Shown here piece by piece: positions 36,233 through 61,912 of a stretch of 64,000 bases of DNA. Both the position numbers and the translations under genes were made by a program. The DNA is from Acidobacteriota bacterium. GTDB lineage: Bacteria > Acidobacteriota > Blastocatellia > Pyrinomonadales > Pyrinomonadaceae. The stretch is taken from NCBI GenBank assembly GCA_019639135.1, contig JAHBSL010000002.1, positions 124,001 through 188,000 on the forward strand, in the 5' to 3' direction. The notes beneath the pieces are model-generated. The model saw only the letters and a program-made list of their open reading frames with translations. It was not told the origin of the DNA and ran no database searches. Positions within the stretch are counted from its first letter, which is position 1, and every line of letters starts with the position of its first letter.

Positions 36233-37669
36233 ATGGCTAACGCAGAATTTGGAATGGTCGGGCTCGGGACGATGGGCCGCAACTTTTTGCTTAATGTGGC
36301 CGAGAATGGCTTCGCGGCCGTCGGCTACGACCTGAGCGTCGAGAAACGCGAGCTTCTAGAGCTTGAAGGTGCCGGCACCCCGGTGACGGCAGCTATCGAG
36401 ATAGCCTCGCTCGCAGCATCGCTCGAGAGGCCGCGACGGATAATGATGCTGGTGCCCGCCGGGCCGGTGGTCGATGCCGTGATCGGCGACCTGCTGCCTC
36501 ATCTTGAACCGGGCGACATCCTGATCGACGGAGGCAACTCGCACTTTCCCGATACAGCCCGCCGCGAAGCGTTTCTAAAGGAACATGGCATCGCCTTTCT
36601 CGGCGTCGGAGTTTCGGGCGGCGAGGAAGGTGCCCGCCGCGGCCCGAGCATAATGATCGGTGGCGACCCGGCGGTTTACGAACGCGTAAGCCCGATCTTA
36701 GAGGCGGTCTCGGCAAAGGTGAATGGTGATCCCTGCGCCGCCCACGTCGGCCGCGGCTCGGCCGGGCATTTCGTCAAGATGGTCCACAACGGCATCGAAT
36801 ACGCGATGATGCAGCTAATCGCCGAGGCCTATGACGTGCTAAAGCGTGTCAGTAGCCCGCACGTAAGTAAGGGCTCATCGCAACAAACAAACGCCGAGAT
36901 CGCCCACACCTTCGCCGAGTGGAACCGCGGCCGCCTAAATTCCTTCCTGATCGAAATAACCGCTACCGTCCTCAAGAAGACCGACCCCGAAACCGGCAAC
37001 TCGCTCGTCGATATGATACTCGACACCGCCGGCCAGAAGGGCACCGGCAAATGGACCTCGCAAGCCGCAATGGACCTCGGCATCCCGATCCCGGCTATCG
37101 ACTCGGCCGTAACAATGCGGCAGATCTCAGCAAAAAAAGCATTCCGCGAAAAACAAAGCAGCCATTTTCTCCCAATTGGCAATTGGCCGATTGACAATTG
37201 TCAATTGGAAGAGAAGGCCATTGAGTCGGCACTCCATAGTTCCTTCGCAGCGGCCTATGCACAGGGCTTCTCGCTGCTCCGGGCGGCGTCGGACGAGATG
37301 GGCTTTGAGCTTGATATGGTCGAGATCGCGAAGATCTGGCGGGGCGGTTGCATTATTCGGGCCGCGATGCTTGAGGATATTCGGGCTGCATTTTCAGAGG
37401 AACCCGGCCTGGAAAACCTGATCGCGTCGCCGCAATTTCGGGATGCCTTGGCCGCGGGCCGCGAGGATCTTGCCAGAGTAGTTGTTGCTGCCGCCTCTGC
37501 CGGCATTCCGGCGATGGCCTTTGCCACGACGCTGAACTATCTTACGGCCTTCGCCACCGAACGCCTCCCGGCCAATCTTATCCAGGCCCAGAGAGACTAC
37601 TTCGGTGCCCACACGTACCAACGCACCGACCGCGAAGGCACGTTTCACACCGACGACTGGGAAGCTTGA
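36233..37669 (+). CDS. gnd: 6-phosphogluconate dehydrogenase, decarboxylating
   Basis: A 478-aa enzyme of the oxidative pentose phosphate pathway (6-phosphogluconate to ribulose 5-phosphate). It has the GLGTMGRNFLLN dinucleotide motif, VSGGEEGARRGPSIM, the catalytic HFVKMVHNGIEYAMMQ core, KGTGKWTSQAA and KIWRGGCIIRAA. Two in-frame insertions relative to the family coincide with palindromic repeats: SSPHVSKGSSQQ (from 36852) and PIGNWPIDNCQLEE (from 37169). Neither breaks the frame or touches catalytic residues, so the enzyme is probably active. It ends one base before the convergent lpxC. Confidence 0.95.
   Translation: MANAEFGMVGLGTMGRNFLLNVAENGFAAVGYDLSVEKRELLELEGAGTPVTAAIEIASLAASLERPRRIMMLVPAGPVVDAVIGDLLPHLEPGDILIDGGNSHFPDTARREAFLKEHGIAFLGVGVSGGEEGARRGPSIMIGGDPAVYERVSPILEAVSAKVNGDPCAAHVGRGSAGHFVKMVHNGIEYAMMQLIAEAYDVLKRVSSPHVSKGSSQQTNAEIAHTFAEWNRGRLNSFLIEITATVLKKTDPETGNSLVDMILDTAGQKGTGKWTSQAAMDLGIPIPAIDSAVTMRQISAKKAFREKQSSHFLPIGNWPIDNCQLEEKAIESALHSSFAAAYAQGFSLLRAASDEMGFELDMVEIAKIWRGGCIIRAAMLEDIRAAFSEEPGLENLIASPQFRDALAAGREDLARVVVAAASAGIPAMAFATTLNYLTAFATERLPANLIQAQRDYFGAHTYQRTDREGTFHTDDWEA
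36852..36879 (+). repeat. REP-like palindrome inside gnd
   Basis: AGCCC (36854-36858) and GGGCT (36871-36875) flank a 12-nt loop. The 28-bp unit matches a copy at 60264-60291 at 24 of 28 positions. It encodes SSPHVSKGSS where typical Gnd proteins pass directly from the YDVLKR helix to TNAEIAHTF-like sequence. This is an in-frame insertion of a dispersed repeat into a coding gene. Confidence 0.7.
37169..37213 (+). repeat. AATTG-family palindromic repeat inside gnd
   Basis: The first 34 bp match the left end of the cassette at 53597-53630 at 29 of 34 positions, with the same 21-bp spacing of its two boxes. The ends CTCCCAATTG and CAATTGGAAG form an imperfect palindrome. The 45-bp unit is 15 codons with no stop and encodes PIGNWPIDNCQLEE in a variable surface region of Gnd. 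Confidence 0.75.
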
Positions 37670-39060: not shown

Positions 39061-39651
39061 ATGGCGATTCAAACTGCGGGCCAAAAGACCGCAAAGACAG
39101 TAAAGCTTAAGATCGAGAACGCATCTTCGCTTGATATGCCAAAGGGCGGCGAGGAGACCATCCGGCAGGTGCTTGACTACGTCCCGATCGAGCAGCTCCG
39201 CGGGCTTGAGCGCGTAAAGCTTGTCGATTTCATCAACGATCCGCGGCTCAAGAACGTTGATGTCCCGATGAAAGGCGATCTGCCGGGCCTTTATCACCCG
39301 AAGGTCGGCAACCAGAACGCATGGTTCGAGATCGCAATGGGCGCTCTACTCCAGCCGACCGAGGGTTTTTCCAAGCGTTGGATGGCCAAGACGTCGTTCA
39401 AGGCAAATCTCGCCGGCCTGCTCTTTTCGCTCATTGGCCAACACTATTATCTGACGCTCCGCCACTCGGTCAAGAAACAGAACCTCGAACCGCAGATCCG
39501 GCAATACACCGAGAAGAACCTTCGAGCATGGAGCGAGGAACAGAACAAGAACAGCTTCCGGGCCAAGCTCTTCAAACCCATCCGCCCGTTCGTCGAGCGT
39601 ATGGCGAAATGGCTGAACAAAAAAGCGGCGAAAGCGCAGAAGAAAGTCTAG
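39061..39651 (+). CDS. Conserved protein of unknown function, possible relict peptidase fold
   Basis: A 196-aa soluble, basic protein. The segment FSLIGQHYYLTLRHSVKK followed by an acidic-to-aromatic helix is laid out like the HExxH helix and following elements of a zincin, but the HExxH glutamate is missing. This resemblance is weak. The stop codon TAG comes from the first unit of the 9-bp repeat array that follows, so the natural C terminus may have been altered. It directly follows the DUF2442 gene. Confidence 0.5.
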   Translation: MAIQTAGQKTAKTVKLKIENASSLDMPKGGEETIRQVLDYVPIEQLRGLERVKLVDFINDPRLKNVDVPMKGDLPGLYHPKVGNQNAWFEIAMGALLQPTEGFSKRWMAKTSFKANLAGLLFSLIGQHYYLTLRHSVKKQNLEPQIRQYTEKNLRAWSEEQNKNSFRAKLFKPIRPFVERMAKWLNKKAAKAQKKV

Positions 39652-39699
39652 GAAGTCTAGGAAGTCTGGGAAGTCTGGGAAGTCTGGAAAGTTCGAAAG
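39645..39699 (+). repeat. Left boundary array: 9-bp tandem repeats (AGTCTNGGA)
   Basis: Five consecutive 9-bp units (AGTCTAGGA twice, AGTCTGGGA twice, AGTCTGGAA) and a degenerate sixth. The first unit supplies the TAG stop of the upstream gene. The same 9-mer recurs in reverse orientation at 40135-40165, so the two arrays bracket the four-helix-bundle gene. Confidence 0.8.
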
Positions 39700-40101: not shown

Positions 40102-40134
40102 GAAGCCCGAAACGGTTCAAATTTGACCATCACA

Positions 40135-40165
40135 GACTTCCAAGACCTCCTAGACTTCCAAGACT
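40135..40165 (-). repeat. Right boundary array: inverted 9-bp repeats
   Basis: On the minus strand three and a half units read AGTCTTGGA, AGTCTAGGA, GGTCTTGGA, AGTCT. This is the inverted counterpart of the array at 39645-39699. It ends 17 bp before the EVE-domain gene. Confidence 0.75.
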
Positions 40166-53275: not shown

Positions 53276-53614
53276 ATGAAAGTACAACTCGTTAAGATCG
53301 CACACGCCCGCTCGGGCGACAAAGGCGATACGGCAAACGTCGGGCTCATCGCCCTCGAAGATAAATACTATCCGATTCTCGTCCGCGAGGTAACGGCCGA
53401 ACGCGTCAAAGCGCACTTCGGCGATATGGTAAAAGGCGAGGTCGAACGCTTCGAACTGCCAAACCTCGGCGCCCTAAATTTCCTGCTCCACGGAGCCCTC
53501 GGCGGCGGCGGAACACTCAGCCTGATGACCGACGCCCAAGGCAAAACATTCTCGACCGCATTGCTGCGAATGTATATCGATGCGGAAGATATCGATCTCC
53601 CAATTAACAATTGA
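53276..53614 (+). CDS. AtuA-like C-terminal domain protein
   Basis: A 112-aa protein with the AtuA C-domain pattern: KIAHARSGDKGDTANVGLIA and ALNFLLHGALGGGG. In the Pseudomonas acyclic terpene (citronellol/geraniol) pathway AtuA contains this domain fused to a DUF1446 domain; here the DUF1446 part is a separate gene at 60503. The last residues (PINN) and the TGA stop are provided by the repeat that bounds the next cassette, so the original C terminus may have been changed. Confidence 0.85.
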   Translation: MKVQLVKIAHARSGDKGDTANVGLIALEDKYYPILVREVTAERVKAHFGDMVKGEVERFELPNLGALNFLLHGALGGGGTLSLMTDAQGKTFSTALLRMYIDAEDIDLPINN

Positions 53615-53630
53615 CCGATTTACAATTGCC
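53597..53630 (+). repeat. Left boundary repeat of the second four-helix-bundle cassette
   Basis: Two boxes: CTCCCAATTAACAAT (53597-53611) and ATTTACAATTGCC (53618-53630). Both recur in reverse orientation at 53977-54018. The TGA stop of the AtuA domain gene lies in this repeat (53612-53614), and the ATG of the next gene follows it by one base. The same 34-bp unit occurs inside gnd (37169-37202). Confidence 0.8.
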
Positions 53631-53631
53631 A

Positions 53632-53988
53632 ATGATGAGCGAAAATCCCATTGTCTCCAAATCTTTTGCGTTTGCCCTGCGAATTGTAAAGCTTTGCCGC
53701 ATGCTCGCCGATGAGCACAAGGAATATACGCTCAGCCGCGAGTTGCTTTCGTCCGGCACGAACATCGGCCGTTATGTTAAAGCAGCCGTAAGCGGAGAGT
53801 CCCGCGAAAGTTTTGTTCAGAACATGGGAAAGGCTTTGCAGCAAGCGGACATTACCGAATACTGGCTGCAACTTATCAGCTTTGCCCAATTGCTCAATGA
53901 AAATGAATATGAATCCATTGAACGTGACCGAAAGGAACTCGCGAGGATGCTGACCAACATCGTTAAGACATCTCGGGGCAAATTGTAA
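53632..53988 (+). CDS. Four-helix-bundle protein of the S23/IVP family (second copy)
   Basis: A 118-aa protein from the ATG at 53632 (53635 also possible); the TTG at 53611 lies in the repeat. Family features: VSKSFAFALRIVKLC, LSSGTNIGRYVKAAVSGES and KALQQADITEYWLQL. It belongs to the subgroup with ESRESFVQNMGKALQQA, common as single genes in many bacteria. Its stop codon (53986-53988) lies inside the right repeat. It occupies a 422-bp cassette (53597-54018). Sequence identity to the copy at 39718 is low, so the cassettes are old or separately acquired. Confidence 0.87.
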   Translation: MMSENPIVSKSFAFALRIVKLCRMLADEHKEYTLSRELLSSGTNIGRYVKAAVSGESRESFVQNMGKALQQADITEYWLQLISFAQLLNENEYESIERDRKELARMLTNIVKTSRGKL

Positions 53989-54018
53989 ATTGTCCATTGA
54001 AGGATTGTTAATTGGAAG
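53977..54018 (-). repeat. Right boundary repeat of the second four-helix-bundle cassette
   Basis: Contains GGCAAATTGTAAAT and ATTGTTAATTGGAAG, the inverse of the two left boxes, 13 bp apart. It is copied at 54127-54168 as part of the tandem duplication. The GGAAG at its end also forms the ribosome-site region of the hydratase gene. Confidence 0.75.
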
Positions 54019-54023
54019 AAGAT

Positions 54024-54071
54024 ATGCCCGTTCTGGTTACAGAAGATCACGAATCCATACGCGTCCTGTGA
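54024..54071 (+). pseudogene. Truncated start of an enoyl-CoA hydratase gene
   Basis: Fifteen codons (MPVLVTEDHESIRVL) ending in TGA, clearly homologous to the first 15 codons of the intact hydratase at 54174 (MSVLLTEDHKYIRVL). It is followed at once by the 3' remnant of a four-helix-bundle gene. Confidence 0.8.
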
Positions 54072-54138
54072 ACGCGACCGCAAAGAGATCGCGAGGATGC
54101 TGACCAACATCGTCAAGACATCTCGGGGCAAATTGTAA
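54071..54138 (+). pseudogene. 3' remnant of a four-helix-bundle gene
   Basis: The last 22 codons of an S23/IVP-type gene (RDRKEIARMLTNIVKTSRG..., shown in part), in-frame to the TAA at 54136-54138, with third-position differences from the intact copy. It has no start of its own. Confidence 0.75.
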
Positions 54139-54173
54139 ATTGTCCATTGAAGGATTGTTAATTGGAAGAAGAT

Positions 54174-54929
54174 ATGTCCGTCCTACTTACAGAAGATCAC
54201 AAATACATACGCGTCTTGACCCTAAACCGCCCCGAGAAGCGGAATGCGCTCAATGATGAGTTGGTCGCGGAGCTTAAGCGGGCGGTGCGGGCGGCGGATG
54301 GGGAAGATTCGTTGAGTGCGGTCGTTATCCGCGGGGCGGGGAAGGATTTCTGTTCCGGGGCGGACCTTTCGGCGTTGCAGAAGATCGCCGGGGCTTCGTA
54401 TGAGGAAAATCTGGAGGATGCGAAAAGCCTGGCTGAGCTTTTCTCATTGATCCGGAATGCGCGGGTGCCGGTCATCGCGGCGGTCCACGGGCGGGCGCTT
54501 GCGGGCGGATGCGGGCTGGCGACGGGCTGCGACATCGTGCTTGCGACCGAGACCGCCCGCTTCGGTTATCCGGAGGTGAAGATCGGCTTTGTCCCGGCGA
54601 TCGTAATGGCGATACTCCGCCGCAACCTCGGCGAAAAGCTCGCCTTTGAGCTGGTCACGCAGGGCTTCGAGTTCTCCGCACCGGAGGCGAAGGCCCTCGG
54701 CCTCGTCAACCGGCTCTTCCCCGAGGAGGGCTTTGAAGCCGCCGTGCTCGACTACGCCGCCGTCTATTCAAAGATCAGCCGCACCGCCGTCGCCCTCAGC
54801 AAATCGCTGCTCTATCGAATGGACGCAATGGACTTCGCCGCCGCCCTCGCCGCCGGCTCCGAAACCAACGCCCAAGCCAGAATGACCGAAGACTGCCAAA
54901 AAGGCATCGCCCGTTTCTTGAAGAAATAG
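54174..54929 (+). CDS. Enoyl-CoA hydratase/isomerase family protein
   Basis: A 251-aa crotonase-family enzyme of usual length. The ATG at 54174 is chosen over a TTG at 54162. Oxyanion-hole segments are FCSGADLSAL and HGRALAGGCGLATGCD, with the acidic PEVKIGFVPAIV segment that carries catalytic Glu in many hydratases. It probably hydrates an unsaturated acyl-CoA, for example methylglutaconyl-CoA-type substrates, given the carboxylase and AtuA genes nearby; the exact substrate is inferred. Spacing 54930-55127 after it is AT-rich and empty. Confidence 0.9.
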   Translation: MSVLLTEDHKYIRVLTLNRPEKRNALNDELVAELKRAVRAADGEDSLSAVVIRGAGKDFCSGADLSALQKIAGASYEENLEDAKSLAELFSLIRNARVPVIAAVHGRALAGGCGLATGCDIVLATETARFGYPEVKIGFVPAIVMAILRRNLGEKLAFELVTQGFEFSAPEAKALGLVNRLFPEEGFEAAVLDYAAVYSKISRTAVALSKSLLYRMDAMDFAAALAAGSETNAQARMTEDCQKGIARFLKK

Positions 54930-57310: not shown

Positions 57311-59656
57311 CTATTTTGTTAATTTAATAACGAAACATGTGTTGCTATCCGAAGAATCTTCGAGTTCGATACTTCCGCCGATTTCCCCAAGGACCTGACG
57401 AACATGATAAAGGCCAAGTCCCGATCCTTGCGTTGTCGTATATCCCATCTCGAAAATCCGAGATTTGTTTGTTCCTGATGGGAATCCCCGACCGTTGTCA
57501 CAGACACGCATGATTAGACCCTTCTTGCCTAAGGAAAAAATCTCAAAACTAATCTTAGAAGCCCGAGCCTTTCTGGCATTGCTAATCAAATTGTCAACAA
57601 TAATCGACGCATCTATAGGATTAAACCTGAACTTCATGCCGGGGTGTTCGTTTGTGACTTGAATCCGCAATCTAGCACTTCCGGTTGTACGGGCAATTTG
57701 TTCGATATAATCGGCCAAAAATGCTGCAATATCGGTCTCAATCTTCTCAGAATCTAATGTAAAATTTGCCCGAGCCGCAAATCTTGTAACCGCCAAAATC
57801 TTTTGGTTCAGAAAAGCCATTTGCTCAATAGTCTTTAGTATTTCTTCCCTCGCAATCGACTTCTGACCAGACGTCGCTGTGAGAAGGTTTTCAATTTGCT
57901 GTCCGACATCTACCGCATAAATCGTAACCTGATGATGGAGATTCAGAATTGTTGCTGTGTCGACGCTAACCACAGATTCAAGAAAGTGCGACCGTCGACG
58001 TTCGACTTCGGCTTCAGCCTCCGCTGTTTCGGCCCTTTCTGTTGCCGCTTCGGCGGCTTCTCGTTCGCGATCCGCTACTTCACGTGCTTCGGCTTCCGAT
58101 CGCTTGAGTTCGTCGAATCTCTTCTCTGCAATTTCGAGCTGTTTGAGTAATTTCTTATCTTTTGTCTTTTCACCAATTGCCCTTAAATTTGTTAACGATG
58201 ATTCAAACTCGCTCGATCGTTCATTCAAGAGATTAATCAGCTGCCTACTATAATCGACGAGTTCAACTTCGTCGCTATCTACTAAAGCAGCAACGGCAGC
58301 AGTGACCCTTGCCCGACCTGGGTCGGTCTTCAGGCGCGAAAGATCTTCTGTCATAGCCTCGGCTTTATCCGCCCAAGACACCGGAACCACATATTTCTCT
58401 AGTCGCTTGAGGCAATGTTCCATTACAGCCTTACGTAGCTCTCCAACTGCAGGCGTTGAAATAAGACCCTGGTTACGACTCGATGCCTCCTGAAAGTCCT
58501 CCTCCGCTCCGAAAACGTCCACGCGGCCGATTACTTCGCGAGTTCCGAGAAATCTTGAGTAACCTTGTTGTTTTCGTCGGTCGAAACCAAACCAGTCATT
58601 GCCGTCCTCGCCTATTGGATAAACTCGAAACCCATTTCTGAATAAAAACACAGAACCAAACTGTACCGATGGTAGTCCTACTCGACGGGCGAATGTAAGT
58701 TTCGCAGATTGATTCAAATAATAAATTTCACACCTGAAATCGGAGTCCTTAAGGTGGGTATAAATGTTCGGCTCACGGATCTTATAGATGAGTTCGCCTC
58801 GATCAACAAGAATCGTTTGTAGCTGTTCACCCTCAATTTTGACATGGATGAAGGTCGTTTTTTCCTGAAGTGCTGAAAAGATGAAGTTTCCTACGCGGCC
58901 ATTTACGATATCCCTTGGCAGGACAACATCGCCCTTTTGTTTAGCCTTCTCTGTCAGGTCAGCATCAGTGGTAACTTCTTGAGGTGCGATGATAGTAATA
59001 CCAAACCGGTCTGTTTCGTCACCAAAAGGATTTATCAGCTTGGCCAGTGATGCTTTGAGTGCAAGTATACGAGGTCGTGTCCAGGCCCTTCGTAGTTTCC
59101 TTACCTCAATTACCGTTCCTGATCCTAATTCTGACGAAAAGTCATGCAGTTCGCCGGGAAGCTCGAATCTATCTTCTTGGTCGTAGGTTACCGGAATTGT
59201 CTCGAAGTGTTCTTTATCATCCTTCTCGAATCTCAGCCAGTCGATGATGAGCTTGTGTACCACTCCTGACTTCGACGCGCGGGTTTGCAAGACTATTTCG
59301 CCGCCGAGACGATCGGATGAAAATCTCCCGATGCCGTAACTTCCCGCATAATGCCGGCGTTCCGCAACAACGTCACGGAAATCTGCCGGATGGTTCGGCT
59401 CACGCTTTGCCGAATAAGCGACGAATAACCATTTGTCCGTAATCTCTGTCCGTGACATTCCTGACCCGTTGTCAGCAATAATTACACGATTAGAATCGAA
59501 GAAGAGATAAACGGAATCCGCGCCCGCATCAAATGAGTTTTTTACGAGCTCAAAGACTGCCACCTCATCGTCGGTAATGAGATTACGGCCCAATACTGTC
59601 TTTAGGCCAGTGCTTACATCAAAATGTAGAGATTCGTTTTGGATCTTCTTGGGCAT
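57311..59656 (-). CDS. Double-GHKL ATPase: Hsp90/MutL-type N domain plus histidine-kinase-type C domain
   Basis: A 781-aa protein; the ATG at 59656 (MPKKIQNES) is preferred to an upstream start. N domain: N box EVAVFELVKNSFDAG (Glu 36, Asn 40), G1 ADNGSGMS, G2 GSYGIGRFSSDRLG, typical of Hsp90/MutL/MORC. A coiled coil (about 500-585) follows, then a segment with LHHQVT as possible His-phosphoacceptor. The C-terminal HATPase has VDNLISNARKA, CDNGRGFP and GSGLGLYHVRQVL. GHKL ATPases of the MutL/MORC type have been noted in restriction-modification operons. The combination with a second kinase-type ATPase is unusual. No membrane helix, so it is cytoplasmic. Confidence 0.85.
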   Translation of the reverse strand: MPKKIQNESLHFDVSTGLKTVLGRNLITDDEVAVFELVKNSFDAGADSVYLFFDSNRVIIADNGSGMSRTEITDKWLFVAYSAKREPNHPADFRDVVAERRHYAGSYGIGRFSSDRLGGEIVLQTRASKSGVVHKLIIDWLRFEKDDKEHFETIPVTYDQEDRFELPGELHDFSSELGSGTVIEVRKLRRAWTRPRILALKASLAKLINPFGDETDRFGITIIAPQEVTTDADLTEKAKQKGDVVLPRDIVNGRVGNFIFSALQEKTTFIHVKIEGEQLQTILVDRGELIYKIREPNIYTHLKDSDFRCEIYYLNQSAKLTFARRVGLPSVQFGSVFLFRNGFRVYPIGEDGNDWFGFDRRKQQGYSRFLGTREVIGRVDVFGAEEDFQEASSRNQGLISTPAVGELRKAVMEHCLKRLEKYVVPVSWADKAEAMTEDLSRLKTDPGRARVTAAVAALVDSDEVELVDYSRQLINLLNERSSEFESSLTNLRAIGEKTKDKKLLKQLEIAEKRFDELKRSEAEAREVADREREAAEAATERAETAEAEAEVERRRSHFLESVVSVDTATILNLHHQVTIYAVDVGQQIENLLTATSGQKSIAREEILKTIEQMAFLNQKILAVTRFAARANFTLDSEKIETDIAAFLADYIEQIARTTGSARLRIQVTNEHPGMKFRFNPIDASIIVDNLISNARKARASKISFEIFSLGKKGLIMRVCDNGRGFPSGTNKSRIFEMGYTTTQGSGLGLYHVRQVLGEIGGSIELEDSSDSNTCFVIKLTK

Positions 59657-60137
59657 TGTGGATAAGTGCTCAGTCCTCAAAAACAGAGCGAACAGCAAAG
59701 CAGGTAAGGAGGAAAATTTATTCAGCCGGGATTTCGACCGATCGTTAAACCATACACAGATTTCAAACTACTTGCGGATATCCTTAAACGCCAAAATGGC
59801 TGCACAGCGTGGATATTTCCACGTGAGTTTAACAGGAGTTAGAAGCTCTTTACAACAAGTTATATTTTGATTTTCCACAGTTCCAATACTTTGACGTAGG
59901 GATTGCACCTATGATACAGTCATGCGTGTCTAGGACAGCCGGGCCGCGGGTTTGCGGCGGGCGGTTGAGGAAAAAATGGTGATGATGGGAATGGATCGGA
60001 AACTGGTGATGGCGGCGGAGCGTAGGGAACGATCGGCTCCTGCGTTTAGCCGTTCGTTTTCTTTTTGGGCGGGGCTGTTCCAATCGGCCGACGGAAAACG
60101 TGTAAACCTATTTCAGGACAAAGCTCCACGGCCTTGT

Positions 60138-60209: not shown

Positions 60210-60265
60210 AACGCGCAGTGCCCGTTAAAAAACATAACAACACTGAACGCGGAACCCGGATACGG

Positions 60266-60289
60266 AAGCCCGCGCGTCAGCAAGGGCTT
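60266..60289. repeat. REP-like palindrome (second copy)
   Basis: AAGCCC (60266-60271) and GGGCTT (60284-60289) around a 12-nt loop. It matches the unit in gnd (36852-36879) at 24 of 28 aligned positions. Confidence 0.7.
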
Positions 60290-60308
60290 ATCATCCATTG
60301 CGATATTC

Positions 60309-60502: not shown

Positions 60503-61912
60503 TCAGGCCTCGATGATCTCGACCTTTGTCTCGATCAGGTGCTTGGGGATGAGGGCGGGGAAGTACGCCATTATCTCCTCGACCTTCGGGCGGCCGCCGG
60601 CAAAGCCGGTGACAGCGGGCGGGCCGGTCAGGATGAGCGGTGCGATCTCTTTCGTGAACCGCTCAACGTCCGCCTTGCTCTGCCCGCGAACGCCGATCCG
60701 GAACTGTACTTCGGGGATGTCAGATGGAGCGCGGACACTCTTGTCCGCATCGCCGGTTCCTCCTGCAAACGATTGCATTGCCAGATGCCCGTGGGTCGCA
60801 TTAACACCGACGAACTCGCTGAGCACAACGTCGAACTTAAGGCCGAGGCGGTCGAGCCGCTCGCGGAGTATGCGGTCGGCGGCCTGGGCCTTCTGGTAAG
60901 CGTCCGGCCAGGCATATACAAGAGTGCCGACGGCCTTCCAACCATGAGAATATGCGATCGAAACCTTATAGAACTCGGTGTTCGGGCCGCCCTTGATACC
61001 GAAAACGCGAACGCGGTCCGGGCCGGCGTCTTCGAGTTGAATGGACGAGAAATCGGCGACAACGTCGGGCGTGATGTAGGCCTTCGGGTCGCCCATTTCG
61101 TAAAGAAGCTGCTCTTTGACACTCTGCACGTTCACGCGGCCGCCCGTGCCTTCGTGTTTGGTGACGATGAACTCGCCGCTCGGCCCGGCCTCGACTATCG
61201 GAAAGCCGACGCGGGCCATGTCCGGTATCGTCTCCCACTCGAACTGGCAGTTGCCGCCCGAGGCCTGAGCTCCGCATTCGATGATGTGGCCGGCGATCGT
61301 CCCGGCCGAGATCAGGTCCCACTGATCGAACTTCCAGCCAAACTCGTGCATCAGCGGAGCAAGCGTAAGGCCCGTATCGGTCAGCCGGCCGCCGACCACG
61401 ACCCTTGCACCGCGGTCGAGAGCCTCGACCAAGCCGCCGGCACCGAGATAGACATTCGCCGCCTGCACCTTGTCGCGAACGGCCGCAAGCGGCTCGCCGG
61501 TGTCCATGTTGGTGATCTCAATGCCGCGTTCGGCGAATTCATCAAGCCGCGGAAGAATGTCATCGCCCGTGATCACGCCGATCTTGAGCTTGCCGCCGAG
61601 CCCGAGTTCGCGAGCGGTTTCGCGAATCGCCTCGGCACAGCCTTCGACGTTGACGCCGCCGGCGTTCGAGAGCACCTTGATGTCCTTATCGACGCAATCG
61701 GGAAGTATCTCGCGCATCAGCGATACGAAGTCGCGGGCATAACCGGCATTCGGGTCGCGTTGCCGCTGCTTCTGGACTATCGACATCGTTACCTCGGCGA
61801 GGTAATCGAGCATCAGATAGTCGATCGGTCCGCCACGCACCTGATCGACCGGTGCAGTAAGCATATCGCCCCAAAAACCCTGTCCGCTGGCAACTCTGAC
61901 CTTTTCTTTCAT
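60503..61912 (-). CDS. AtuA-family protein (DUF1446 domain)
   Basis: A 469-aa protein matching the N-terminal DUF1446 part of Atu[12 protein letters not shown] near the start, [43 protein letters not shown] and [13 protein letters not shown]. AtuA is required for acyclic terpene utilisation in Pseudomonas, but its exact reaction is not settled. The C-terminal domain of AtuA is a separate gene at 53276, 7 kb away. It reads toward the repeat spacer. Confidence 0.88.

Follow-up and report, generated by a model that had tools for sequence, protein, structure and literature searches.

In-frame palindromic repeats in genes of a Pyrinomonadaceae bacterium, and a RAYT lineage found embedded in acs and priA

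Two systems of palindromic repeats very probably enter protein-coding genes in frame in the genome analysed here: short REPs, one of which lies within gnd, and SADT, a REPIN-like element, accompanied by a RAYT that is embedded in host genes. It is also fairly likely that this RAYT lineage, rather than having a gene to itself, persists as a translated in-frame domain of housekeeping proteins, at two sites of acs and in priA, together with in-frame REPINs distributed among many essential genes, in an intein-like manner without splicing, its loss being checked by the host gene. Beyond gnd, the strongest in-frame examples are provided by SADT and by the embedded transposase. The window is the whole stretch of 64,000 nucleotides that was analysed, corresponding to C12:124001-188000 in genome G000 (4.09 Mb, 41 contigs). 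Its features, and the host genes of the inserts, are collected in Table 1.

Table 1. Features of the window and host genes of the in-frame inserts. Positions refer to the window, unless a locus is named.
Feature	Position	Strand	Description
gnd, 6-phosphogluconate dehydrogenase, host of units 1 and 2	36233..37669	+	ORF of 478 aa; best PDB match 2w8z, E 7e-139
Unit 1, REP in frame in gnd	36852..36877	+	5' GTAG, stem GCCC/GGGC, GC/AA internal mismatch, GTAA loop; encodes SSPHVSKGS; net +9 aa
Unit 2, AT-rich palindrome of CAATTGN heptamers, in frame in gnd	37167..37215	+	encodes PIGNWPIDNCQLEE; 42 bp identical in G019
Unit 2 relative CCAATTAACAATTGACCGATTTACAATTGCC	53597..53634	+	inverted relatives at 53982-54019 and 54132-54169; outside any convincing gene
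Second REP copy, GCGCGT/AGCAAGGGC subtype	60268..60287	+	between genes 57311-59698 (-) and 60503-61912 (-)
AtuA-family gene with in-frame half SADT element	60503..61912	-	Pfam AtuA E 1.6e-145 over 5-465; insert missing in G019 and G011 orthologues
SADT REPIN-like element, right half	60726..60762	-	core TGCGGACAAGAGTGTCCGC at 60731-60749
acs ORF with SADT elements and whole in-frame RAYT	L175:2365-5376 (G000:C9)		about 1003 aa; Pfam AMP-binding, AMP-binding_C, ACAS_N, Y1_Tnp
REP-bearing ORFs in G000			MutS2, M1 aminopeptidase (5), beta-lactamase-family, PntA (2), MetH (2), epimerase, GlcD-like oxidase (2), Gnd, S58 peptidase, DUF1697, saccharopine dehydrogenase, ThiC
SADT hosts			TatD, M14 peptidase, LeuRS, CarB, NuoG-like molybdopterin protein, AsnB, ACS (4), RtcB, GltD-like, KorA, acyl-ligase, GH92, TrmFO, MetH, alpha-2-macroglobulin (3), AtuA (window), ThiC
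Embedded RAYT, acs at the G000 site (site A)			G000, G117, G023, G041, G050
Embedded RAYT, acs second site			G003, G017, G022, G051
Embedded RAYT, priA			G004, G047

The in-frame palindrome without stops that an earlier note had described in gnd is confirmed for unit 1 (GTAGCCCGCACGTAAGTAAGGGCTCA), which is translated as SSPHVSKGSS at residues 207-216 of Gnd. With respect to PDB 2w8z and to its relatives, the protein carrying the unit is 9 aa longer, corresponding to 27 bp; the unit length of 28 bp, which the note had taken for a multiple keeping the frame, is not divisible by 3. The alignment of Gnd with relatives, which the note had proposed, includes 29 rows, counting G000 (one more match, in which the anchor motif is missing, was left out), and the unit 1 peptide is missing in 27 of the 28 relatives. 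The exception is G019, the closest relative (88% amino acid identity in Gnd), which carries both units and, at the unit 1 site, an extra tandem REP of another subtype. In the AF2 model of Gnd (mean pLDDT 90.5) the fold is confident apart from the loops holding the two units, and unit 1 corresponds to a low-confidence loop, 206-219, between helices.

By its sequence, unit 1 is a REP: a short palindrome in high copy number, with an AA-GC bulge in the stem, in a genome where RAYT genes lie between inverted REPs. At up to 3 mismatches, its core pattern gave 2 matches within the 64-kb window, versus 0.01 expected; at up to 2 mismatches, the genome search that the note had also proposed gave 73 matches in G000 and 0 with the reversed pattern. 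A wider pattern, covering three subtypes at up to 1 mismatch, identified 105 sites in the same genome (control 0). The partner of unit 1 in the window, placed by the note at 60264-60291, where the agreement is 7/28, truly starts at 60265, and the match claimed as 24/28 is 23/28 when counted by eye. In nearly all copies, G5C6 is found as a mismatch opposite A15A16. Among 86 rows, 46 have G-C and 35 have A-U at one stem pair. None of 500 shuffles equalled the covariation score, but this is the only pair that covaries, and kinship among copies inflates such scores. A GTAG tag is a typical REP feature; it is present in the gnd copy, and most copies have GAAG or GAGG instead (T in 6/87). A CGTC-tagged end was absent from the position counts over 87 copies.

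Y1_Tnp matches in G000 are 11. Two RAYT ORFs, L018 on C21 and L019 on C6, lie between inverted REPs, of the GCAC..GTAAGGGC and GCGC..GCAAGGGC subtype, respectively; a gene flanked by inverted REPs is the layout that defines RAYTs in the available text of PMC2817692, and the GC/AA stem mismatch of E. coli REPs is conserved and required according to that of PMC8266576. A covariance model matches the REP family in 25/25 genomes of the genus and in 5/15 outside it, with candidates limited to 150 per genome. The note had placed unit 1 among elements of the Rickettsia palindromic type (RPEs), an assignment replaced here by that of REP, in view of the GC/AA-bulged hairpin and of the two RAYT genes between inverted copies; its broader inference, of genomic palindromes entering coding genes in frame as RPEs do, is strongly supported.

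REPs are mostly found between genes. Nevertheless, looking for copies within other genes, as the note had suggested, at least 19 of the 105 sites turned out to be in frame, in 12 ORFs with Pfam domains. Nine REP-carrying ORFs without a Pfam match were not counted as genes, and the copies on L188-L194, where ORFs do not exceed 171 aa, were left out of the genic count. Genic REPs, often in inverted pairs, are read in at least 4 of the 6 frames, as SPHVSKGS, KPAREQGR, ALTDVRAS and PSLTVG. Their peptides are missing in most orthologues, among up to six relatives compared per gene, and the loop is often filled by something else; those of PntA, the beta-lactamase-family protein, MutS2, DUF1697 and the GlcD loop are also kept in G019. 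The DUF1697 loop contains SSPHVSKG in G019 and SSPHISKG in G013; in G011 it has QKPARSKG, read from another frame, and in G001 and G022 it is without an insert. In the epimerase, ALTSVRAS is found in G013, and four other relatives lack an insert. The same loop holds different repeats in sister species, and mobile DNA would here directly meet protein evolution, loops of essential enzymes in one genus changing by insertion of coding palindromes.

The core of the SADT element, TGCGGACA(A/G)GAGTGTCCGC, was found at 50 half-sites in G000 when two mismatches were allowed (control 0), mostly as inverted pairs. Bounded by GGAG and CTCC, the element measures 97-130 bp in genic pairs; its arms are conserved, small hairpins lie inside, and the middle is variable. 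In the 22 pairs of G000 (18 genic and 4 not), two inverted hairpins and their spacer form a larger hairpin, and the folding of three copies as single-stranded DNA was far above that of shuffles (z -6.2, -8.2 and -7.9). Of the 26 solid places, 22 are in frame within Pfam-supported ORFs, a count that excludes L184 and L185 (2 mismatches each). This share is close to the usual bacterial coding density, near 0.9, although most random genic insertions should be lost; either, therefore, SADT is built for coding, or non-genic copies are lost faster. The reading, SADTPVRMS..., is nearly always in one frame, with few exceptions such as the M14 and carB copies, where one arm is in another frame, and the span between the outer core ends of a pair is divisible by 3 in 17/18 genic pairs and in 0/4 of the others (P 0.0007). 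Since most arm frames are open, frame openness alone does not account for the fixed frame, which, together with the multiple-of-three spacing, suggests an element built for coding.

SADT is missing in most orthologues, among up to five relatives, of leuS, nuoG, metH, rtcB, acs and others; the CarB and TrmFO inserts are common to G000 and G019, and the M14 gene had no orthologue in this comparison. With respect to empty sites, the net gain is 144 bp in nuoG, 120 in metH, 117 in leuS, 132 in acs and 75 in rtcB, and no exact target duplication was definable from these five sites. Counting G000, 32 of the 37 genomes of the genus contain half-sites, as does 1 of 23 outside it. The closest relative, G019, has 16 half-sites, and the RAYTs among the matches listed for it belong only to another, free clade; the embedded RAYT is therefore not needed for the element to persist. 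Ordinary loop divergence, or low-complexity drift without any insertion, might be invoked in part for unit 2, at whose site other species carry a loop that differs but is about as long, but for REPs and SADT it is contradicted by the nucleotide identity of copies read in several frames in unrelated genes, by the zero counts of the reversed-pattern controls and by the net length gains over orthologues, and as a general explanation it is very improbable.

In the acs gene of G000, a whole SADT element lies on one side of the RAYT and the right half of a second one on the other. The corresponding loop is only about 10 residues long in G013 and G001, and the RAYT with its flanking elements enlarges ACS by about 250 aa. 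The insert matches TnpA_REP 4er8 (E 5.7e-9), and PF01797 (Y1_Tnp) scored over the cut-off in the G000 protein and in 10/10 relatives scanned, of which eight belong to the embedded clade. Among 162 genomes of the class, 11 close homologues (55-100% identity) were found, from eleven species, G000 itself included, and all of them are embedded in long ORFs (826-1064 aa; 361 aa in G051); for L358 (G047), outside the Pfam scan, the host was assigned as priA by similarity to L328. The motif MPNHxH is present in 11/11 and the strict Y..NPV in 8/11, the other three keeping the Y by eye. Homologues at 48% identity or less are mostly free ORFs of about 195-283 aa, with long-ORF exceptions in G038, G054, G033, G027 and G157, plus some of 316-356 aa. 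Wherever flanks were examined, the embedded RAYT lies between SADT-like hairpins, whose arms show paired changes between species (GCGGACA/TGTCCGC, GAGGACA/TGTCCTC, GGGGACA/TGTCCCC).

A model of the ACS-RAYT protein, obtained by AF2 (mean pLDDT 58.8) and used for the RAYT part only, is confident over most of this part, low over the SADT parts and poor over ACS, the latter probably due to a shallow alignment; Foldseek, run with the same model, reported ACS structures among the best 50 matches. In G017, 80 codons separate the RAYT core from the closest in-frame start codon upstream (ATG, GTG or TTG), which lies within acs. The other embedded RAYTs have a nearer start codon, often in a SADT arm, from which internal initiation may occur.

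The 11 embedded RAYTs group as one clade (100/98) in a tree of 41 rows; those of priA are nested within the acs site A group, which suggests that the RAYT has moved between in-frame sites. The dN/dS ratio of the RAYT is 0.09 in the G003/G017 pair and 0.04 in the G004/G047 pair, in both below that of the adjoining host stretch, two other pairs being saturated; at the codon level, purifying selection on the embedded RAYT is shown in the two measurable pairs. Such strong selection, and the presence in 11 species, would also be expected of a RAYT domesticated as a functional domain of ACS or PriA, the small elements being by-products; this is rather unlikely, considering that a single clade occupies three host positions, with priA nested in the site A group, and that sister species have an acs without RAYT.

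Another RAYT clade was observed in frame within DNA-methylase ORFs (L340 and L341, in G038 and G054, and L350, in G027), where the Pfam scan shows host domains in G038 and G027, and other repeated peptides (GARASRPR.., AGVSPA..) bound the insert. They suggest that embedding arose more than once.

Many of the assemblies consist of hundreds of contigs. Incorrect assemblies, in which repeats had wrongly joined contigs or genes, could be suspected from the many repeat copies close to contig ends in G000. The G051 case (L356) also lies at a contig edge, and here acs appears to pass across SADT arms directly from the first insertion site into its C-terminal part, most of the gene being skipped; its embedding is doubtful in detail, and may reflect recombination between elements or an assembly join. 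However, host domains resume in frame on both sides of the insert in separately assembled genomes, and two species pairs have a common site despite high synonymous divergence, so that artefacts are an extremely improbable explanation.

Inteins with homing endonucleases, and IStrons, hold a mobility enzyme inside an essential gene, from which imprecise loss is costly, and the embedded RAYT resembles them in this. The location of inserts in essential enzymes, and the size of the addition to ACS, could be taken to indicate that they are removed before the protein works, by an intein-like or IStron-like process or by translational bypass. Frame and absence of stops are, however, kept in every genic copy counted, which would be needless if removal took place at the RNA level. 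No group I/II intron or IStron RNA was matched by Rfam, at the gathering threshold, in five loci (L175, L327, L330, L358 and L020), and no intein splicing domain is found among the Pfam matches at E<=0.001 in insert-bearing proteins. Removal is thus improbable and, unlike inteins and IStrons, the RAYT insert seems to stay in the protein.

In the explanation that we favour, REPs would be non-autonomous hairpins, moved through single-stranded DNA by the RAYT/TnpA_REP of the same genome, and SADT a REPIN-like element presumably mobilised by its own RAYT. Elements would enter coding genes, where out-of-frame insertions would be lost, while survival would be possible where the element is open in the host frame and extends a surface loop; the host would translate the surviving element as a short hydrophilic insert, which may be neutral or beneficial. 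System A consists of the short, mostly intergenic REPs, with their three subtypes and two RAYT genes. In system B, formed by the mainly genic SADT, the presumed RAYT is itself located between such elements, within acs or, in two species, within priA, and would thereby be read as a domain of the host protein. The reason favoured for such embedding is that an in-frame resident of an essential gene would be protected, because imprecise deletion would damage the host gene.

The REP/REPIN and RAYT systems described in the available parts of PMC2817692, PMC3116915 and PMC8266576 share with those reported here the GC/AA-bulged imperfect hairpins, the inverted pairs making larger hairpins, the Y1 HUH transposase between inverted copies and the compensatory stem changes. 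According to the same parts of PMC8266576 and PMC3116915, RAYTs cut single-stranded DNA hairpins, and the inverted doublet is regarded as the unit that moves. From what these texts describe, known REPs and REPINs are mainly extragenic, whereas SADT is mainly genic and in one frame, and its presumed RAYT differs from the known ones in lacking a gene of its own, being in frame in acs or priA. Intragenic REPs (Di Nocera 2013, PMC3733652; Opitutus terrae, Thauera) are likewise hairpins in frame in unrelated proteins, single or as dimers, but, in the portion of that paper at hand, none is from Blastocatellia and no RAYT inside a host gene is described. RPEs are also palindromic elements translated in frame within housekeeping genes, and the present repeats likewise lie in frame in genes whose functions are assigned by sequence; according to the same portion of PMC3733652, they have a CGTC end and no dedicated transposase, whereas the present REPs have no CGTC end and an identified transposase.

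Intragenic REPs with their in-frame reading, and RPEs, are already known from the text of PMC3733652 considered above. New, as far as searches show, are the system in this family, an in-frame REPIN with a fixed frame, and a RAYT clade found embedded only: neither a RAYT in frame inside a housekeeping gene nor such elements in Pyrinomonadaceae were found in the literature searched, which was mostly outside subscription papers and in part available as excerpts. A survey discarded unexpectedly long Y1 proteins as gene fusions or annotation errors (PMC6006769, available text), so that embedded RAYTs may have been overlooked, and unusually long Y1_Tnp proteins may be real. Because a candidate transposase is known, with free and embedded homologues, the entry of RPE-like elements into proteins becomes a testable question.

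Unit 2 shares no sequence with unit 1, and was rejected as a member of its REP family. The 29/34 match to 53597-53630, reported in the note, is exact. As single-stranded DNA, the unit folds into a hairpin spanning about 37167-37215 (-17 kcal/mol, z -6.0); its peptide corresponds to Gnd residues 314-327, and in the AF2 model it falls in a low-confidence loop, 309-319. In the Gnd alignment, unit 2 is common to G000 and G019 only. Because the other species hold a different loop, of nearly equal length in most, it is less clearly an insertion than unit 1, and the weaker case is for loop replacement rather than a clean insertion; of the two palindromes that gnd was said to have accepted, the first is established and the second, replacing a variable loop, is only likely. 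In the stretches inspected, other copies in G000 are mostly outside convincing genes, and no second convincing copy inside a known gene was seen among 16 further stretches inspected by eye. Cyanobacterial heptanucleotide repeats (STRR) are made of degenerate 7-bp units, and unit 2 (CAATTGN) is similar to them in unit length.

Other repeats were observed in the window and in relatives. A 150-bp tandem duplication (88%), containing a unit 2-like palindrome, is found at 53902-54201, and a 36-bp inverted repeat of AGTCTGGGA-like nonamers at 39645-39680 and 40130-40165, with 449 bp between. Loops of relatives, for example in L308 (G019), L288 (G001), L147 and L148 (G011) and L279 (G014), contain the repeated peptides SPPYEGGVDAASADG, SEPGAIATGS, PPKGGT and AETRPVGSVS, which probably represent other palindromic repeat families in frame. 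Other AATT-rich tracts are found in the Gnd loop of unit 2 in G011 and G014, and in G009, G006 and G005 (L043, L046 and L049) this loop, a hot spot of length change, has at least about 50 additional residues of unrelated sequence.
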